Source: Pontibacter sp. G13 (GTDB lineage Bacteria > Bacteroidota > Bacteroidia > J057). From it: a stretch of 64,000 nucleotides of DNA. Below are positions 53,561-64,000 of the stretch, in pieces. The stretch lies in NCBI RefSeq assembly GCF_031851795.1, contig NZ_CP134696.1, forward strand, positions 4,484,501 through 4,548,500. The letters run 5' to 3'. Every line of letters starts with the position of its first letter. The stretch's first letter is position 1. Under the pieces are notes generated by a model. That model ran no database searches and had not been told where the DNA came from. It was given only the letters and a program-made list of their open reading frames with translations. The translations under genes and the position numbers were made by a program.

Positions 53561-55285
53561 ATGGAACTGGAACCATTACCCGCGAGGGACCGAGTCTTGC
53601 GTCAGCGAATTGAGGAAAAAGCAGAGGAGATTCGGAAGATTCGATCGCAGCATCAGTTCATGGCCTATGCAGATCATGGGCATTTGTTCGAAGAGTTGGA
53701 GGCGCTATATGCTGAAAACCGCCTTCAATATGAACGTTGCTACCTACAAAATCGCGATCGCCTTAACCAGTTCCAGCATCAGCTTCAGGACGCGAATCAT
53801 GCTATCCATGCCCTTTCCCGAGACCAATTGTTGAAGCTTTTGCGAGATGCAGAGGCACTTCTGGAGATGGAAGATTACACGGAGAATGCCAAGTCCGCTC
53901 AATTGCTGTTGGATTTCGAGGCAGCTTTCAAGAAAGCTCAATCTACCTTTTTGGGTTGGATGGACGCACTTGATGTCTGGGAGCAGCAGCTTGAGCAACT
54001 CAAAATGCAGGTGTGGTCCGAGGACTTTCAGCAGTTTGAACAGGCATGGAAAGAAGCTCGGAAGTTGGTCAAGGGGAATTCGCAATTTCCGGTTTCCTTG
54101 GGCATCAATCCTTCCAAACGAGCGGAGGCGATCGAAAAACGGAACTCCGAGTTTGAACCCTTTTTGGAACGAATGCGCAAATATCCCTCATTCCTATCCC
54201 AAGCGCAGGAGTTGGCAGGAAGCCCTTGTTCCAGAGCCGAATTTCTGGCTTTGAAAAATGAGGCCAATCGGTTCCTTTTTCTAAAAAAACGAAAACGAAT
54301 CGTCGGAATAGGAATCGCCGCCACGGTAGTGATGGCAGCATTGGTACTCGGCCCTATGGTCCAGAAGCGGATGCAAGAGGACGATATTTGGGAATTGGCT
54401 CAGGAAGAAGGGACGATCGAGGCGCTGCGGGAATATCAGCAATTGTATCCCAACGGAAAATACTTTCAAGAAGCCAAAGTCGCCCTGTTCGAGATCACAG
54501 AAGGGAAATTGGCGGGTCTGGTAGATATCGATTCAGCGAGGTATGACTACGAAGGCGATTTGATGAATCTCCTGCCCAATGGATACGGTGTGGCCACCTA
54601 TGACAATGGTGCTACCTATGAAGGCTACTGGACAATGGGGAAGCGGGATAGCATCGGCAAAATCACCCATGCTAACGGCGGCAGCTACGATGGCCATTGG
54701 AACATGGGGGTCCGAGAGGGGCAAGGAATCGCGATCAATCCAGATAAATCGAAGTATGAAGGCCAATGGAGAGACAATCTCTACCACGGTTCTGGAAGGT
54801 TGGCGCTTCGCAATCGTGCTTTTCAACAAGGAATTTGGGAAAATGGGCATCTGAATGGACAAGGAAAGGCCCGGGATGCATTCGGAAATGAATACGCGGG
54901 AGAATTCCTCAAAGGTCAATATCACGGTTCAGGCAATCTTCGTCACCCGGATGGAACGCTTGTCGCGGGAAAGTGGGAATATGGCGTGCAAATAGGAGAG
55001 GGAATCATCGAATTTCCTGACGGCCGGACGTTTCGTGGTAAATGGACCGGAGGACTCAGAGAAGGAGATGGAAGGATCGATTGGCCCAATGGAAGCTACT
55101 TCATGGGTCGATGGGTGGCTGATACCATTCAAGGCAAAGGCTCATTTGTCTCTAGATTCCGAGATGAATACTCAGGTCAATGGGCTGGCCGTCCCGAGAA
55201 GATCATTCTGTACGATGGATCGGGAAATGTTTTCAAGGTAGGGAAATGGCAGGATGGTCTATTTTTGGACCTAGATGCTGGATAG
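53561..55285 (+). CDS. Coiled-coil, single-TM protein with MORN repeats
   Basis: 574 residues. Residues 1-225 are helical and highly charged (long coiled coil), about 248-268 form one membrane helix (IVGIGIAATVVMAALVLGPM), and from about 325 to 560 there are around nine MORN repeats (YEGDLMNLLPNGYG, YEGYWTMGKRDSIGK, YDGHWNMGVREGQG, ...). MORN sheets bind lipids or proteins, so a scaffolding role at the envelope is inferred. A Tol-type short helical repeat (LREYQQLYPNGKYFQEA) lies between. Upstream gldF is divergent. Confidence 0.85.
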   Translation: MELEPLPARDRVLRQRIEEKAEEIRKIRSQHQFMAYADHGHLFEELEALYAENRLQYERCYLQNRDRLNQFQHQLQDANHAIHALSRDQLLKLLRDAEALLEMEDYTENAKSAQLLLDFEAAFKKAQSTFLGWMDALDVWEQQLEQLKMQVWSEDFQQFEQAWKEARKLVKGNSQFPVSLGINPSKRAEAIEKRNSEFEPFLERMRKYPSFLSQAQELAGSPCSRAEFLALKNEANRFLFLKKRKRIVGIGIAATVVMAALVLGPMVQKRMQEDDIWELAQEEGTIEALREYQQLYPNGKYFQEAKVALFEITEGKLAGLVDIDSARYDYEGDLMNLLPNGYGVATYDNGATYEGYWTMGKRDSIGKITHANGGSYDGHWNMGVREGQGIAINPDKSKYEGQWRDNLYHGSGRLALRNRAFQQGIWENGHLNGQGKARDAFGNEYAGEFLKGQYHGSGNLRHPDGTLVAGKWEYGVQIGEGIIEFPDGRTFRGKWTGGLREGDGRIDWPNGSYFMGRWVADTIQGKGSFVSRFRDEYSGQWAGRPEKIILYDGSGNVFKVGKWQDGLFLDLDAG

Positions 55286-56390: not shown

Positions 56391-57173
56391 ATGCCATTTA
56401 CAATGACTCCGAACTCCGTACAAATCGACACCGATTGGGACTTTTATTTCTGTACCATCGAAGATCGTCCCGCTTCCATCATGTTGGACTTGGCTATCCA
56501 GCCTCATGCTCCTTTGATGGACAAATCCTCCCTCATCCAAGTGACGGTCACACTCCGCCAGCCCAATGAGTTTGGACTCACCAATCAGGCTGAAGCAGAA
56601 GTCCTCTACGTCATGGAGGATCAGATGGCCGAGCATCTTTCTACCTACCTCGGAGGCATGTACGTCGCACGTTGTACTTCCAAAGGGAAGCGAATTTTTT
56701 ATTTCTATTGCAATTCCTCTGTCGACTATCAGCGCGTGGTGGAGGAGATTATGGATGGATTTCCTGAATATCGGCACCAGGTCAATGCGCAAGTAGATGC
56801 CAATTGGACCTACTATCTGGACTTTCTGTATCCATCCGCTTACGAATACCAATCTATCCTCAACCGGAGAGTTGTGGATCGTTTGGAACAGCAAGGCGAC
56901 AATATCCACAAAGCACGTGAGGTGGAGCATTTTCTCTATTTCTCCTCCGAGACCGACAGAAAGCGGTTTATGGATCAGATTCGCGAGCGGAGCTTCTCAG
57001 TGAGATCGCAGGCATTTGCAGCTGATTCTCCTTCGATGCCGTTTAGCTTGATGATTTCCAGAGTGGATCGGGTGGATACTTCCTCCATTGATCAGATTGT
57101 CCTGCATCTCCTACAAGCAGCAGAAAATTGCAATGGACGCTATGAAGGGTGGGGAACGACTGTTACAGCCTAG
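56391..57173 (+). CDS. DUF695-RraB-like protein
   Basis: 260 residues (ATG 56391, or ATG 56403). The first half (VQIDTDWDFYFCTIEDRPASI...) is DUF695. The second half (YYLDFLYPSAYEYQSI...FSSETDRKRFMDQIRERSF...NGRYEGWGTTV) resembles RraB, whose enterobacterial member binds and inhibits RNase E. No RNase E-type partner is in the window. It is followed 60 bp later by the VLRF1-like gene on the same strand. Confidence 0.78.
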   Translation: MPFTMTPNSVQIDTDWDFYFCTIEDRPASIMLDLAIQPHAPLMDKSSLIQVTVTLRQPNEFGLTNQAEAEVLYVMEDQMAEHLSTYLGGMYVARCTSKGKRIFYFYCNSSVDYQRVVEEIMDGFPEYRHQVNAQVDANWTYYLDFLYPSAYEYQSILNRRVVDRLEQQGDNIHKAREVEHFLYFSSETDRKRFMDQIRERSFSVRSQAFAADSPSMPFSLMISRVDRVDTSSIDQIVLHLLQAAENCNGRYEGWGTTVTA

Positions 57174-57233: not shown

Positions 57234-57920
57234 ATGGAAGCCACTCAATTCGATTATGACGAAACGCTGGCATTGCTAGAGTATCTCGAGGATGAATGGT
57301 CGGGGAATCCGCTCCGACTCGATGAGAAGAAGCATGCAATCCAAGCTTGGGATGATGCTGGCGAACTTACCTTGGATTTGAGGCTGCCGCTTGTGATGCC
57401 TGCCATGGAAGAGGACCAGTCTTTGTCTGCCTACCGCGAATCGCTTTCCGAAGATATTCCCACGTATTTGATGTTTATCGTTCAGTTGGGAGCAGCATCT
57501 GTTGGAGCATTCGAAGATGGAGAGGTGGTAGACCACAAGGCTTTCAAGAAGTACATGAAGCGCGAGAAGCGTGGCAAGGCCCAAATCAGTTACCTCAATC
57601 AGAAGGGCAAATCCAAAGCGGGTTCCCGAATCCGGCTTGCGAATACGGTGCGTTTCTTCGAAGAATTGAATGAGCGCCTGACGGATTTGATGGAATGGTA
57701 CGAGCCTGAACGATTGATTTATTCATGCACGGCACAGCTTTGGGGGCTTATGTACCAATCCAAAGTTCCTCCTCCTTTCGAAAAGAAAGATCCACGCCTC
57801 ATCAAAGTTCCCCTCGACTTGAAGGTTCCTACCCACGAAGAAATGATGCGCGTTAACGAATTCGCCCAAAAATCCCGTCTGCTGGTTTATCCGGAGGATG
57901 AGTGGGATTTTCAAGGATAA
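57234..57920 (+). CDS. VLRF1 (Vms1/ANKZF1-like) candidate peptidyl-tRNA release factor
   Basis: 228 residues from the ATG at 57234 (MEATQFDYDETLAL); TTG 57177 gives a longer frame. A strand pair ASVGAFEDGEVVDHKAFKKY leads to a basic loop KREKRGKAQ, where Gly114-Lys-Ala-Gln117 fits the GxxQ motif used by Vms1/ANKZF1 in place of the eRF1 GGQ. AGSRIRLANTVRFFEEL and DPRLIKVPLDLKVPTHEE match the order and style of conserved VLRF1 blocks. Vms1/ANKZF1 cleave peptidyl-tRNA on stalled 60S subunits. This protein lacks the zinc finger and ankyrin parts. Assignment rests on motif comparison from memory. Confidence 0.78.
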   Translation: MEATQFDYDETLALLEYLEDEWSGNPLRLDEKKHAIQAWDDAGELTLDLRLPLVMPAMEEDQSLSAYRESLSEDIPTYLMFIVQLGAASVGAFEDGEVVDHKAFKKYMKREKRGKAQISYLNQKGKSKAGSRIRLANTVRFFEELNERLTDLMEWYEPERLIYSCTAQLWGLMYQSKVPPPFEKKDPRLIKVPLDLKVPTHEEMMRVNEFAQKSRLLVYPEDEWDFQG

Positions 57921-58121: not shown

Positions 58122-59120
58122 CTAGATTCCTTTGAGTTCGAATGCGTATGATTGATAGTTGATCAGTTCACGGGCTGCATGATTGTCTTTCCATCCATCT
58201 TCCTCGTGAGAGATGTCAATGATTTCCGCGGTTTTGGTTTGGGCAAATTTTTCAGCCACCTGCTTCATGGCGACCAGTTCCGATGCTGAAAAGATCGTCT
58301 CGTCGAATTCCTGCTTATCGGCGATAAACCGCTCTCCAACTCCTCCATGCTCGAATATCTCCTCTTCGATCTGTACATATCCTTCTGCTTCTAGCATTCC
58401 GAACAATTCTCGAAAGTGCGAGGGTACAGGGCCAAAAGGGATCGCACGGTAGTTGCATCCAGAAATGGAGAACCCATGCTGTTTGTAGTGGAGGAAATCT
58501 GCGTAGAACATCAGTTTATTCAGGCGAGTTTTCCGTGGTTGAATTTGTTTGGCAAAGTACAGGACGAAATTGGCCACCTTGTCAAAAGAAGGTTTCACGA
58601 ATCCAGTGAATGAGTTCGCCTCCAGATGAAAATTCCATAGATAGGACACGACGGAATCCAATCTATTCTCCTGAGTCAGTGAGGCGAGTTTGTCCATAGC
58701 CTTTCGAAAAGCATTCTTGGAAAAAATGGCCTCCTTTTCCTCTACAAATCGGCGGAAATTATGAGGATCTCGAGCCAAGCGGATCAACTTGGCATTGGCA
58801 AGACTAGGGATTTCGCCCTGCTCGTAGTTCCGATAGCTATTGATCCCAAAGTCCAACACCTCCGACATTTTGCTCGCAGACAATCCATACTGTTCCCGGA
58901 TTCGGCGAATCTCAGCAGGAAAAGGGATGTGGTGCCGCTCCCGAAAGAGGTTGTACACCTGCTGCAAGGCAAGTTCATCTTGCTCCTCAGTGCTGAAAGT
59001 CTCTCCAGACTCCTCGGATTGGTAGAAGTGTTCGACCACCTCGAAAGATTCCTTTCTGAAGCTGCGGGTTACGGTATGGTGAGTGAGCTTGGCTGGTTCT
59101 CCTGTGATCGGATGTTTCAT
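58122..59120 (-). CDS. MqsA-like antitoxin with XRE and Panacea (SocA) domains
   Basis: 332 residues. The N-terminal part (about 1-60) is laid out like the MqsA/YgiT zinc domain, but the CxxC pairs are replaced (HPITGEP; YQSEESGETF). An XRE helix-turn-helix follows (IRRIREQYGLSASKMSEVLDFGINSYRNYEQG, about 70-115). A Panacea/SocA (DUF4065) domain fills about 175-325 (RKTRLNKLMFYADFLHYKQHG, GCNYRAIPFGPVPSHF). Such proteins neutralise varied toxins. It follows the presumed toxin gene by 66 bp (toxin first, as in mqsRA). Confidence 0.85.
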   Translation of the reverse strand: MKHPITGEPAKLTHHTVTRSFRKESFEVVEHFYQSEESGETFSTEEQDELALQQVYNLFRERHHIPFPAEIRRIREQYGLSASKMSEVLDFGINSYRNYEQGEIPSLANAKLIRLARDPHNFRRFVEEKEAIFSKNAFRKAMDKLASLTQENRLDSVVSYLWNFHLEANSFTGFVKPSFDKVANFVLYFAKQIQPRKTRLNKLMFYADFLHYKQHGFSISGCNYRAIPFGPVPSHFRELFGMLEAEGYVQIEEEIFEHGGVGERFIADKQEFDETIFSASELVAMKQVAEKFAQTKTAEIIDISHEEDGWKDNHAARELINYQSYAFELKGI

Positions 59121-59186: not shown

Positions 59187-59498
59187 TTATCTTTTGGCTT
59201 TGCGGATGCCCTGACAAATAGCCGGGGTTAATGAATCCAGAATTCCTACCCGAATGATCAGCCGATGATGTCGGAATGCGACCTCGAATTCCCACCATTT
59301 CATTTCAGGCATTTCTATCGAGACCAATGGGCCTTCCAAGTAGTCCGCCTCTTCCAAATTGGCGATCAAAAAATTGCGTTTGGAAGCTGTCATTTCCGTC
59401 TCTAGCATCAATCGGATTTGTTCATCGCGATTGAGGTAGCAGATGCCTTGTTGTTCCCTTCTTGTGTGAAAGTCACGGATAAACTGCTCGACGGCCAT
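59187..59498 (-). CDS. Putative MqsR-like toxin
   Basis: 103 residues from the ATG at 59498 (MAVEQFIRDF); GTG 59525 would add nine. It contains the family-like order 'R..L.L...M....R...I..L...DYLEGPL' followed by strands MKWWEFEVAF and RLIIRVGIL. MqsR folds are RelE-like mRNA interferases, so RNA cleavage is the default guess, but identity is low by eye. Assignment leans on its size and position before a Panacea antitoxin. Confidence 0.6.
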   Translation of the reverse strand: MAVEQFIRDFHTRREQQGICYLNRDEQIRLMLETEMTASKRNFLIANLEEADYLEGPLVSIEMPEMKWWEFEVAFRHHRLIIRVGILDSLTPAICQGIRKAKR

Positions 59499-59611
59499 GG
59501 GAAATGTGTGAATTGCGGTTGCCACAGGTTAGGTATGTCGGTGAGTACAGTTGCAAGGTACGCTCGAATCTGGGAATGTCAAATTTTTTAGTGTAAAAAG
59601 TGAAAATATTG

Positions 59612-61605: not shown

Positions 61606-61637
61606 TTTGCTTTAGGTGTTCATCGTCAATGCCTTTG
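61606..61637 (+). promoter_or_regulatory. Candidate promoter of rpsL-rpsG-fusA
   Basis: TTTG (61606-61609), a 20 nt spacer and TGCCTTTG (61630-61637) fit the Bacteroidota consensus with one mismatch in the TA of the -7 box. It is 27 bp before the rpsL ATG. Confidence 0.45.
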
Positions 61638-61663
61638 CAGCCGCTTTTAAGATTCGCATATAT

Positions 61664-62041
61664 ATGCCAACTATTCAGCAACTTGTAAAGAAAGGCAGAA
61701 AGTCTAAAGTGGAGAACAGTAAGTCTCCAGCCTTGGATTCCTGTCCACAACGAAGAGGGGTATGCCTCCGGGTATATACCACTACGCCGAAGAAGCCGAA
61801 CTCCGCCCTCCGGAAAGTTGCTCGTGTGCGTTTGACCAACGGCAAGGAGGTAAACGCATACATCGGCGGTGAAGGTCATAACCTGCAGGAGCACTCTATC
61901 GTGCTCGTGAGAGGTGGACGTGTGAAGGACCTTCCTGGTGTTCGTTATCACGTAGTACGTGGTGCACTTGACACCGCTGGTGTTGAAGGCCGGATGCAGG
62001 GACGATCCAAGTATGGTTCTAGAAGACCTAAAAGCAAGTAA
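61664..62041 (+). CDS. rpsL: 30S ribosomal protein S12
   Basis: 125 residues from the ATG at 61664 ([12 protein letters not shown]). [28 protein letters not shown] contains the wild-type lysine of the streptomycin region, and [19 protein letters not shown] is also intact, so no known resistance change is visible. First gene of the str operon rpsL - rpsG - fusA; rpsG starts 7 bp after its stop. Confidence 0.98.
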
Positions 62042-62048
62042 TTAAGAC

Positions 62049-62516
62049 ATGAGAAAGTCAAGAGCTAAGAACAGACAGGTCATTCCCGATCCTAAATTCA
62101 AGAACGAGCTTGTATCCAAGTTTGTGAATAACTTGATGGTGGATGGCAAGAAGAGTCTTGCTTACAGCATTTTCTACGGTGCGATCGAGATTGTCGAGCA
62201 GCGCACCAATGAAGATGGGGTCGAGGTGTTCAAGACCGCTCTCAATAATGTTGTTCCTGCTGTAGAGGTGAAGAGCCGTCGCGTGGGAGGTGCTACCTTC
62301 CAGGTGCCTACAGAGGTAAAACCAAAGCGAAAAGAAGGTTTGGGTATTCGCTGGATGATCCGTTACGCGAAATCTCGCAACGGAAAGTCTATGCGCGAGA
62401 AGCTTGCTGCTGAAATCATGGCTGCTGCCAAAGGTGAAGGTGGCGCTGTCAAGAAGAAAGAAGACACGCACCGTATGGCAGAAGCCAACAAAGCATTCTC
62501 TCACTTCCGTTTCTAA
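62049..62516 (+). CDS. rpsG: 30S ribosomal protein S7
   Basis: 155 residues. [52 protein letters not shown] and the C-terminal [14 protein letters not shown] are typical of S7, which nucleates the head of the small subunit. Between rpsL and fusA. Confidence 0.98.
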
Positions 62517-62557
62517 TTTGTTGCCTTTAAACCTGAACCACTTTAGAGGGAAAGATC

Positions 62558-64000
62558 ATGAAAAAAGTACCACTTCGCGATACCCGTAACATCGGTATCA
62601 TGGCCCACATCGACGCCGGTAAGACTACCACTACCGAGCGTATCCTGTACTACACCGGAATCTCTCACAAGATCGGTGAGGTGCATGACGGTGCTGCCAC
62701 TATGGACTGGATGGAGCAAGAGCAAGAGCGTGGTATTACCATTACTTCTGCTGCAACCACTTGCTACTGGCCTTACGAAGGTACCAACAACCGTATCAAC
62801 ATCATCGATACGCCTGGTCACGTTGACTTCACCGTTGAAGTAGAGCGTTCCTTGCGTGTATTGGACGGTGCTGTTGCGGTGTTTTGTTCTGTAGGCGGTG
62901 TTGAGCCTCAGAGTGAAACTGTTTGGCGTCAAGCTGATAAATACAAAGTTCCTCGTATCGGATTCGTCAACAAGATGGACCGTTCTGGTGCTGACTTCTT
63001 TGAAGTTGTTCGCCAGGTGAAGGACATGTTGGGTGCTAACCCTGTGCCTATTCAGGTGCCTATCGGTGCTGAGACTGAGTTCAAAGGCGTTGTTGACTTG
63101 ATCGAAAACAAAGCCATTGTATGGAACGAGCATGACATGGGGATGACCTATGAAACCATCGAGATTCCAGAAGACTTGGCTGATACGGTTGAGGAATGGA
63201 GAACTTTCATGATCGAAGCCATCGCCGAGTACGACGAGGCGATCATGGAGAAGTACTTCGAAGATCCTGATTCCATCACTCGTGATGAGGTATTGAACGC
63301 ATTGCGTGCAGCTACCTTGGATATGGCGATTACGCCTATGATGTGTGGATCTGCCTTCAAAAACAAAGGGGTTCAGGCGATGCTCGACTCAGTTATCGCA
63401 TTGTTGCCTTCTCCGCTGGATATGCCAGAAATCGAAGGTACCAATCCTCATACTGGTGAGACTGTCACTCGTAAGGCTGACGTAAATGAGCCATTCTCCG
63501 CATTGGCTTTCAAGATTATGACCGACCCCTACGTAGGTCGTCTGGCGTTCTTCCGCGTGTACTCTGGTAAGTTGGATGGTGGATCTTATATCCTCAACAA
63601 CCGCACCGAGAACAAGGAGCGTATTAGCCGGATCCTGCAGATGCACTCCAACAAGCAGAATCAGATTGAATCTGTGGAAGCTGGTGACATCGCTGCAGGC
63701 GTAGGTTTCAAAGATATTCGTACTGGGGATACCTTGTCCGACTTGGATAACCCCATCACTTTGGAGTCCATGGAGTTCCCTGAGCCTGTAATCAAGCTGG
63801 CCGTTGAACCTAAGACTCAAAAGGACGAAGCAAAACTTGGTAACGGTTTGGCGAAACTTTCTGAAGAGGATCCAACCTTCCAAGTAAGAACTGACGAAGA
63901 GACAGGTCAGACTATTATCTCCGGAATGGGTGAGCTTCACTTGGAGATTATTGTTGACCGCCTTAGACGTGAGTTCAAAGTAGAAGTTACACAAGGTCAA
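62558..64000 (+). CDS. fusA: Elongation factor G (5' part)
   Basis: 481 residues from the ATG at 62558 ([15 protein letters not shown]), cut by the right edge. GTPase motifs are [13 protein letters not shown] (P loop), RGITITSAA (switch I), DTPGH and NKMD. Domain II and part of domain III follow. A purine-rich AGAGGGAAAG lies just upstream. It drives translocation on the ribosome. Third gene of the str operon, 41 bp after rpsG. Confidence 0.98.

Follow-up and report, generated by a model that had tools for sequence, protein, structure and literature searches.

Eukaryotic Vms1/ANKZF1, which releases incomplete proteins from stalled ribosomes and terminates ribosome-associated quality control (RQC), has been described as a peptidyl-tRNA hydrolase (PMC5989216) and, in a 2024 RQC paper, as a tRNA endonuclease cleaving the CCA-3' end (PMC11317155). 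Termination has been called the least understood step of bacterial RQC; no dedicated factor is known, and only Pth has been shown to act, in B. subtilis (PMC11317155). The family bVLRF1 was predicted from sequence in 2019 by Burroughs and Aravind, who stated that VLRF1 proteins of bacteria and archaea are distributed independently of the remaining RQC components (PMC6514570). A literature search covering few subscription journals returned no experimental characterization of any bacterial member. We analyzed a bVLRF1 gene (positions 57234–57920, plus strand) in a 64,000-nucleotide window of Pontibacter sp. G13 (contig NZ_CP134696.1; the window is this whole stretch of DNA). We propose, with moderate confidence, that its product is a single-domain release factor of the Vms1/ANKZF1 type that acts on peptidyl-tRNA on large subunits and probably ends RQC in these bacteria.

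Family membership and likeness to Vms1

The open reading frame (ORF) is intact, ends with TAA at 57918–57920 and encodes 228 residues from ATG 57234, comprising a Vms1-like release-factor domain and a short N-terminal extension. The start is uncertain, as the frame is open upstream and offers alternative starts at GTG 57201 and TTG 57177. The gene is present as a single copy in the 7.67 Mb genome. Its product matched Pfam PF18826 (bVLRF1, 'Bacteroidetes VLRF1 release factor') at 95.7 bits, far over the cut-off of 27 (E 3.1e-27), with residues 79–212 aligned to profile positions 2–138 of 145. VLRF1 was the sole Pfam domain in the protein: eRF1 domain 1, a Pelota domain and the zinc finger, ankyrin repeats and VCP-interacting motif (VIM) of eukaryotic VLRF1 (eVLRF1) had no Pfam match in the 228 residues, and a weak match to baeRF_family10 stayed below cut-off (E 0.013). 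NCBIfam held no model for it. Together with the profile match to Vms1 and the fold described below, this score makes the ORF a clear member of the bVLRF1 family within the VLRF1 clade. The first-pass annotation, made from the letters of the window, had proposed this membership from three sequence blocks (GKAQ, AGSRIRLAN and DPRLIKVPLDLKVPT), had named a hidden Markov model (HMM) search as a check and had mentioned a Bacteroidota family described from sequence. The blocks are all in place, the HMM search bears the proposal out, and the family mentioned is that of Burroughs and Aravind (PMC6514570).

The VLRF1 core, with an RNase H-like fold, spans residues 79–213 (57468–57872, plus strand, as are the segments that follow). 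It contains a basic catalytic loop, YMKREKRGKAQISYLNQKG (residues 107–125, 57552–57608), with GKAQ at residues 114–117 within KKYMKREKRGKAQ, a motif that fits the GxuQ pattern (Gly, any, tiny, Gln) of bVLRF1. The GKSKAGSRIRLAN block (residues 125–137, 57606–57644), of which AGSRIRLAN forms residues 129–137, starts the basic helix after the loop, and DPRLIKVPLDLKVPT occupies residues 186–200 (57789–57833). When the family profile was searched against the PDB (hmmsearch), yeast Vms1 (5whg) was matched by sequence alone (E 4e-11) and was the sole significant hit. The profile alignment places Q117 opposite the Gln of Vms1 GGSQ, has KGK and aGS of the GKSKAGSRIRLAN region common to both proteins, and aligns DPRLIKVPLDLKVPT with DERIKSFP..NRPT of Vms1. 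R110, G114 and Q117 are equivalent to Vms1 R288, G292 and Q295, with the same R-4-G-3-Q spacing, and H101 and Y107 upstream are placed as Vms1 His 279 and Tyr 285. By our own count in this alignment, yeast Vms1 shares 13 of the 17 residues that are constant in a 43-sequence set. In yeast Vms1, release is abolished by R288A and by G292A/G293A and strongly impaired by Q295L and by G292A (PMC5989216).

An AlphaFold2 model was confident (predicted local distance difference test (pLDDT) 90.5, predicted template modeling score (pTM) 0.86) except in the catalytic loop, where a low pLDDT of 54–60 indicates flexibility. The top four Foldseek matches of this model were yeast Vms1 structures (E 8e-8 for Vms1), three of them 60S-bound, followed by eRF1, aRF1, Balon and Pelota. 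VIA-align superposed the model on Vms1 with Z 13.1 and 3.6 Å over 177 residues, covering model residues 2–219, whereas eRF1, like Pelota and Balon, aligned over residues 74–213 only. The segment before residue 74 is therefore shared specifically with Vms1, in line with the N-terminal extension common to bVLRF1 and eVLRF1 that the family's describers had proposed from sequence.

HMM and protein searches yielded 13 homologues, and further alignments held 43 and 80 sequences. G114 and Q117 are invariant in all three sets. The peptide patterns used to retrieve the 80 sequences contain several of the invariant residues, G114 among them but not Q117, so the invariance of G114 is free of selection bias only in the 13-sequence set. 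Also invariant in all 80 are H101, Y107, R110, G125, K126, S127, G130, S131, R132 and R134, and D186, R188 and P193 are invariant in the 43. Position 116 is S in 68 and A in 12 of the 80 sequences, and in 79 of them 17 residues lie between Y107 and G125. A best structural match to another fold, or variation at Gly114 and Gln117, had been named beforehand as grounds for giving up the VLRF1 proposal; the best match is Vms1 and both residues are constant.

Distribution and co-occurrence with RqcH

Whole-genome HMM and protein searches detected bVLRF1 in 7 of 13 genomes from the family to which the window belongs, in 12 of 395 from its class and in 5 of 296 from its phylum. The gene was also carried by 47 of 194 genomes in the order of genome G273, whose Litoribacter ruber contig identifies this order as Cytophagales. 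Scanning named genomes yielded 80 loci, including Pontibacter, Rufibacter, Fulvivirga, Roseivirga and Cyclobacteriaceae. The distribution is wider than the 'predominantly Bacteroidetes' of the family description: carriers outside Bacteroidota comprised several Calditrichota, Myxococcota and Planctomycetota (with Candidatus Uabimicrobium amorphum), one Bdellovibrionota bin and one Pseudomonadota bin. In a tree, the window's copy grouped with its own GTDB family, which speaks against its horizontal transfer; the wider branching was weakly supported.

RqcH presence was scored through its NFACT domains. The source genome encodes RqcH (a 557-residue ORF at G000:C1:3721385-3723058) as well as a full tmRNA (141 bits), RF1 and RF2, and gave no match for ArfB. 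In the class sample, RqcH exceeded the cut-off in 77 of 395 genomes, namely 10/12 carriers versus 67/383 others (uncorrected Fisher p 2e-6). The corresponding figures in Cytophagales were 42/47 versus 105/147 (uncorrected Fisher p 0.008). All 7 carriers of the window's family encoded RqcH or NFACT-R, and NFACT-R was found in all 10 carriers tested outside Bacteroidota. Contrary to the statement of the family's describers, carriers of bVLRF1 thus usually encode RqcH too, and the association is one of enrichment, not obligate. The RqcH of the source genome (L120 386–2059) and those of three other Bacteroidota (L101, L118 and L119) have Glu-Arg (..ER..), probably at the position of the Asp-Arg motif that B. 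subtilis RqcH needs for tailing. In a published survey of the FCB group, 404 of 1,956 genomes had rqcH (PMC11633108).

Replacement of other rescue factors was considered and rejected, for tmRNA because the source genome has a full copy, and for ArfB because several carriers (G301, G305 and G273) have ArfB-length RF-1 matches and others do not.

Proposed function and alternatives

The proposed release function is based on family membership, fold, residue conservation and RqcH co-occurrence, from which we infer ribosome binding, release activity and a place in RQC. Because it lacks a stop-codon-reading domain as well as a Pelota/EF-Tu-binding domain, the protein should act on split 50S subunits holding peptidyl-tRNA. 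By analogy with Vms1 on the 60S subunit, it should work on mRNA-split large subunits with its loop in the peptidyl-transferase center. The RNase H-like core would dock in the empty A site of the 50S subunit, the basic loop would reach into the peptidyl-transferase center, and Gln117, positioned by Gly114 and Arg110, would detach the chain from the tRNA in the P site. Where the host has RqcH, as in this genome, bVLRF1 would probably stop Ala-tailing by freeing the tailed peptide, as a dedicated alternative to Pth. A role in RQC termination is plausible, with RqcH enriched among carriers. The stronger proposal, that bVLRF1 is the dedicated terminator of bacterial RQC in carrier lineages and ends RqcH Ala-tailing by chain release from the 50S subunit, can be put forward only tentatively.

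Several observations weigh against the proposed release function and its place in RQC. The co-occurrence counts are uncorrected for kinship, which confounds them; counted by genus, the Cytophagales enrichment falls to p 0.07, and one small phylum outside Bacteroidota is NFACT-R-positive in all 5 genomes regardless. Four carriers (G590, G802 and G336, 99–100% complete, and G770, 95%) have no RqcH match at all, so the link to RqcH is not obligate; together with the all-positive phylum, they weaken any strong claim of RqcH dependence. Conversely, most RqcH-positive Cytophagales (105 of the 147) lack bVLRF1, and RQC therefore does not need it. Across the 80 loci there was no conserved neighborhood or operon shared with RQC genes. 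In B. subtilis RQC, the chain is released by Pth (PMC11317155), and the literature search found neither activity nor ribosome binding for any bacterial member.

Among the alternatives, nuclease chemistry at the same site fares best. The 3' CCA would be cut from the P-site tRNA, the peptide would leave with the CCA, and the CCA-adding enzyme would mend the tRNA. Such cleavage of the CCA-3' end has been reported for Vms1/ANKZF1 (PMC11317155), and the motif here is GKAQ, not GGQ, while shortening GGSQ to GGQ in Vms1 abolishes function (PMC5989216). The family's describers, on the other hand, argue that GxuQ is an ordinary release-factor loop and that the superfamily lacks the acidic nuclease residue of strand 1 (PMC6514570). 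Ester hydrolysis and CCA cleavage cannot be told apart by sequence and fold, and we lean against the nuclease.

Burroughs and Aravind originally proposed a stand-alone rescue factor for special conditions such as stress, antibiotics or damaged ribosomes (PMC6514570). Such a factor would be independent of RqcH, and the two genes would co-occur because lineages with large genomes retain both. The RqcH-less carriers and the lack of an operon shared with RQC genes fit this view, and the source genome, having no ArfB match, might accommodate an additional rescue factor, but the ArfB-length matches in other carriers show that bVLRF1 is not a simple ArfB replacement. Given that RqcH or NFACT-R accompanies bVLRF1 in most Cytophagales carriers and in every carrier of the window's family and outside Bacteroidota, we consider stand-alone rescue unlikely. 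A non-catalytic role like that of Balon or Dom34, plugging the A site or serving in hibernation, fits the shared fold over residues 74–213 (Balon entries, Z about 10–11), but is very improbable for a single-domain protein whose Gly and Gln are invariant and whose loop length is nearly fixed, the pattern of active release factors, where a Balon-type protein would have the three-domain aeRF1 architecture without the catalytic Gln motif.

Gene neighborhood and comparison with known systems

Directly upstream on the same strand, ending 60 bases before ATG 57234, lies a fusion gene (56391–57173, plus strand) with DUF695 (Pfam E 1e-33) and RraB-like (E 2e-22) parts; RraB is a family of RNase E regulators. 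This neighbor is not kept beside bVLRF1 in the 79 other loci, and we do not consider it part of the system. An operon or partner gene was rejected more generally, as no neighbor recurs beyond close relatives over the 80 loci. Searches of phage and plasmid records gave no match, and PADLOC gave none for the bVLRF1 protein, so mobile or phage origin and membership in a defense system were likewise set aside.

Elsewhere in the window, 58122–59120 (minus strand) encodes an antitoxin-like protein whose N-terminal half is MqsA-type/helix-turn-helix and whose C-terminal domain is SocA/Panacea. Beside it, a 112-residue gene (59187–59525, minus strand) had no Pfam, NCBIfam or significant PDB match; the two look like a Panacea-type toxin-antitoxin pair with the second gene as the putative toxin. 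In a 574-residue protein (53561–55285, plus strand), a charged N-terminal part resembling a coiled coil is accompanied by a single hydrophobic stretch and five matches to MORN repeats. The genes rpsL, rpsG and fusA follow in the usual str operon order at 61616–64000 (plus strand; translations read by eye).

The protein itself is an ordinary member of a known family, named in 2019 and already in Pfam. Added here are the residue-level and structural match to Vms1, including the N-terminal extension, the broader distribution and the tendency of carriers to encode RqcH. Here the closest bacterial relative of the eukaryotic RQC terminator sits in an RqcH-encoding genome, as in most carriers, and its presence in named type strains (Pontibacter, Rufibacter and Litoribacter) makes the question of RQC termination testable in culturable bacteria. 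If bVLRF1 is indeed a dedicated RQC terminator, the eukaryotic tail-then-release pair (Rqc2 and Vms1) would already have been paired in bacteria before its adoption by eukaryotes. The family also has a bearing on the question of whether the tail-and-release module reached eukaryotes as a unit.

Compared with the bVLRF1 family (PF18826), the protein shows no difference of its own: it shares the HMM match, the GxuQ loop, the single release-factor domain with a short N-terminal extension and the Bacteroidota host. ArfB, RF1/RF2 and Pth share the proposed outcome, a peptide freed from tRNA, and have folds unrelated to that of bVLRF1. Balon and other baeRF-type aeRF1 homologues have the RNase H-like middle-domain fold (Z about 10–11), but Balon has N- and C-terminal domains, lacks GGQ and is a hibernation factor. 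The eRF1/aRF1 proteins share the middle (M) domain fold with its catalytic Gln loop, whereas the bVLRF1 protein has GxxQ instead of GGQ and neither a stop-codon domain nor a C-terminal domain. Vms1/ANKZF1 differs in its Rei1-type zinc finger, ankyrin repeats, treble clef and Cdc48-binding VIM, all lacking in the 228-residue protein, yet it is the best fold match, and its catalytic R, G and Q are identically spaced.
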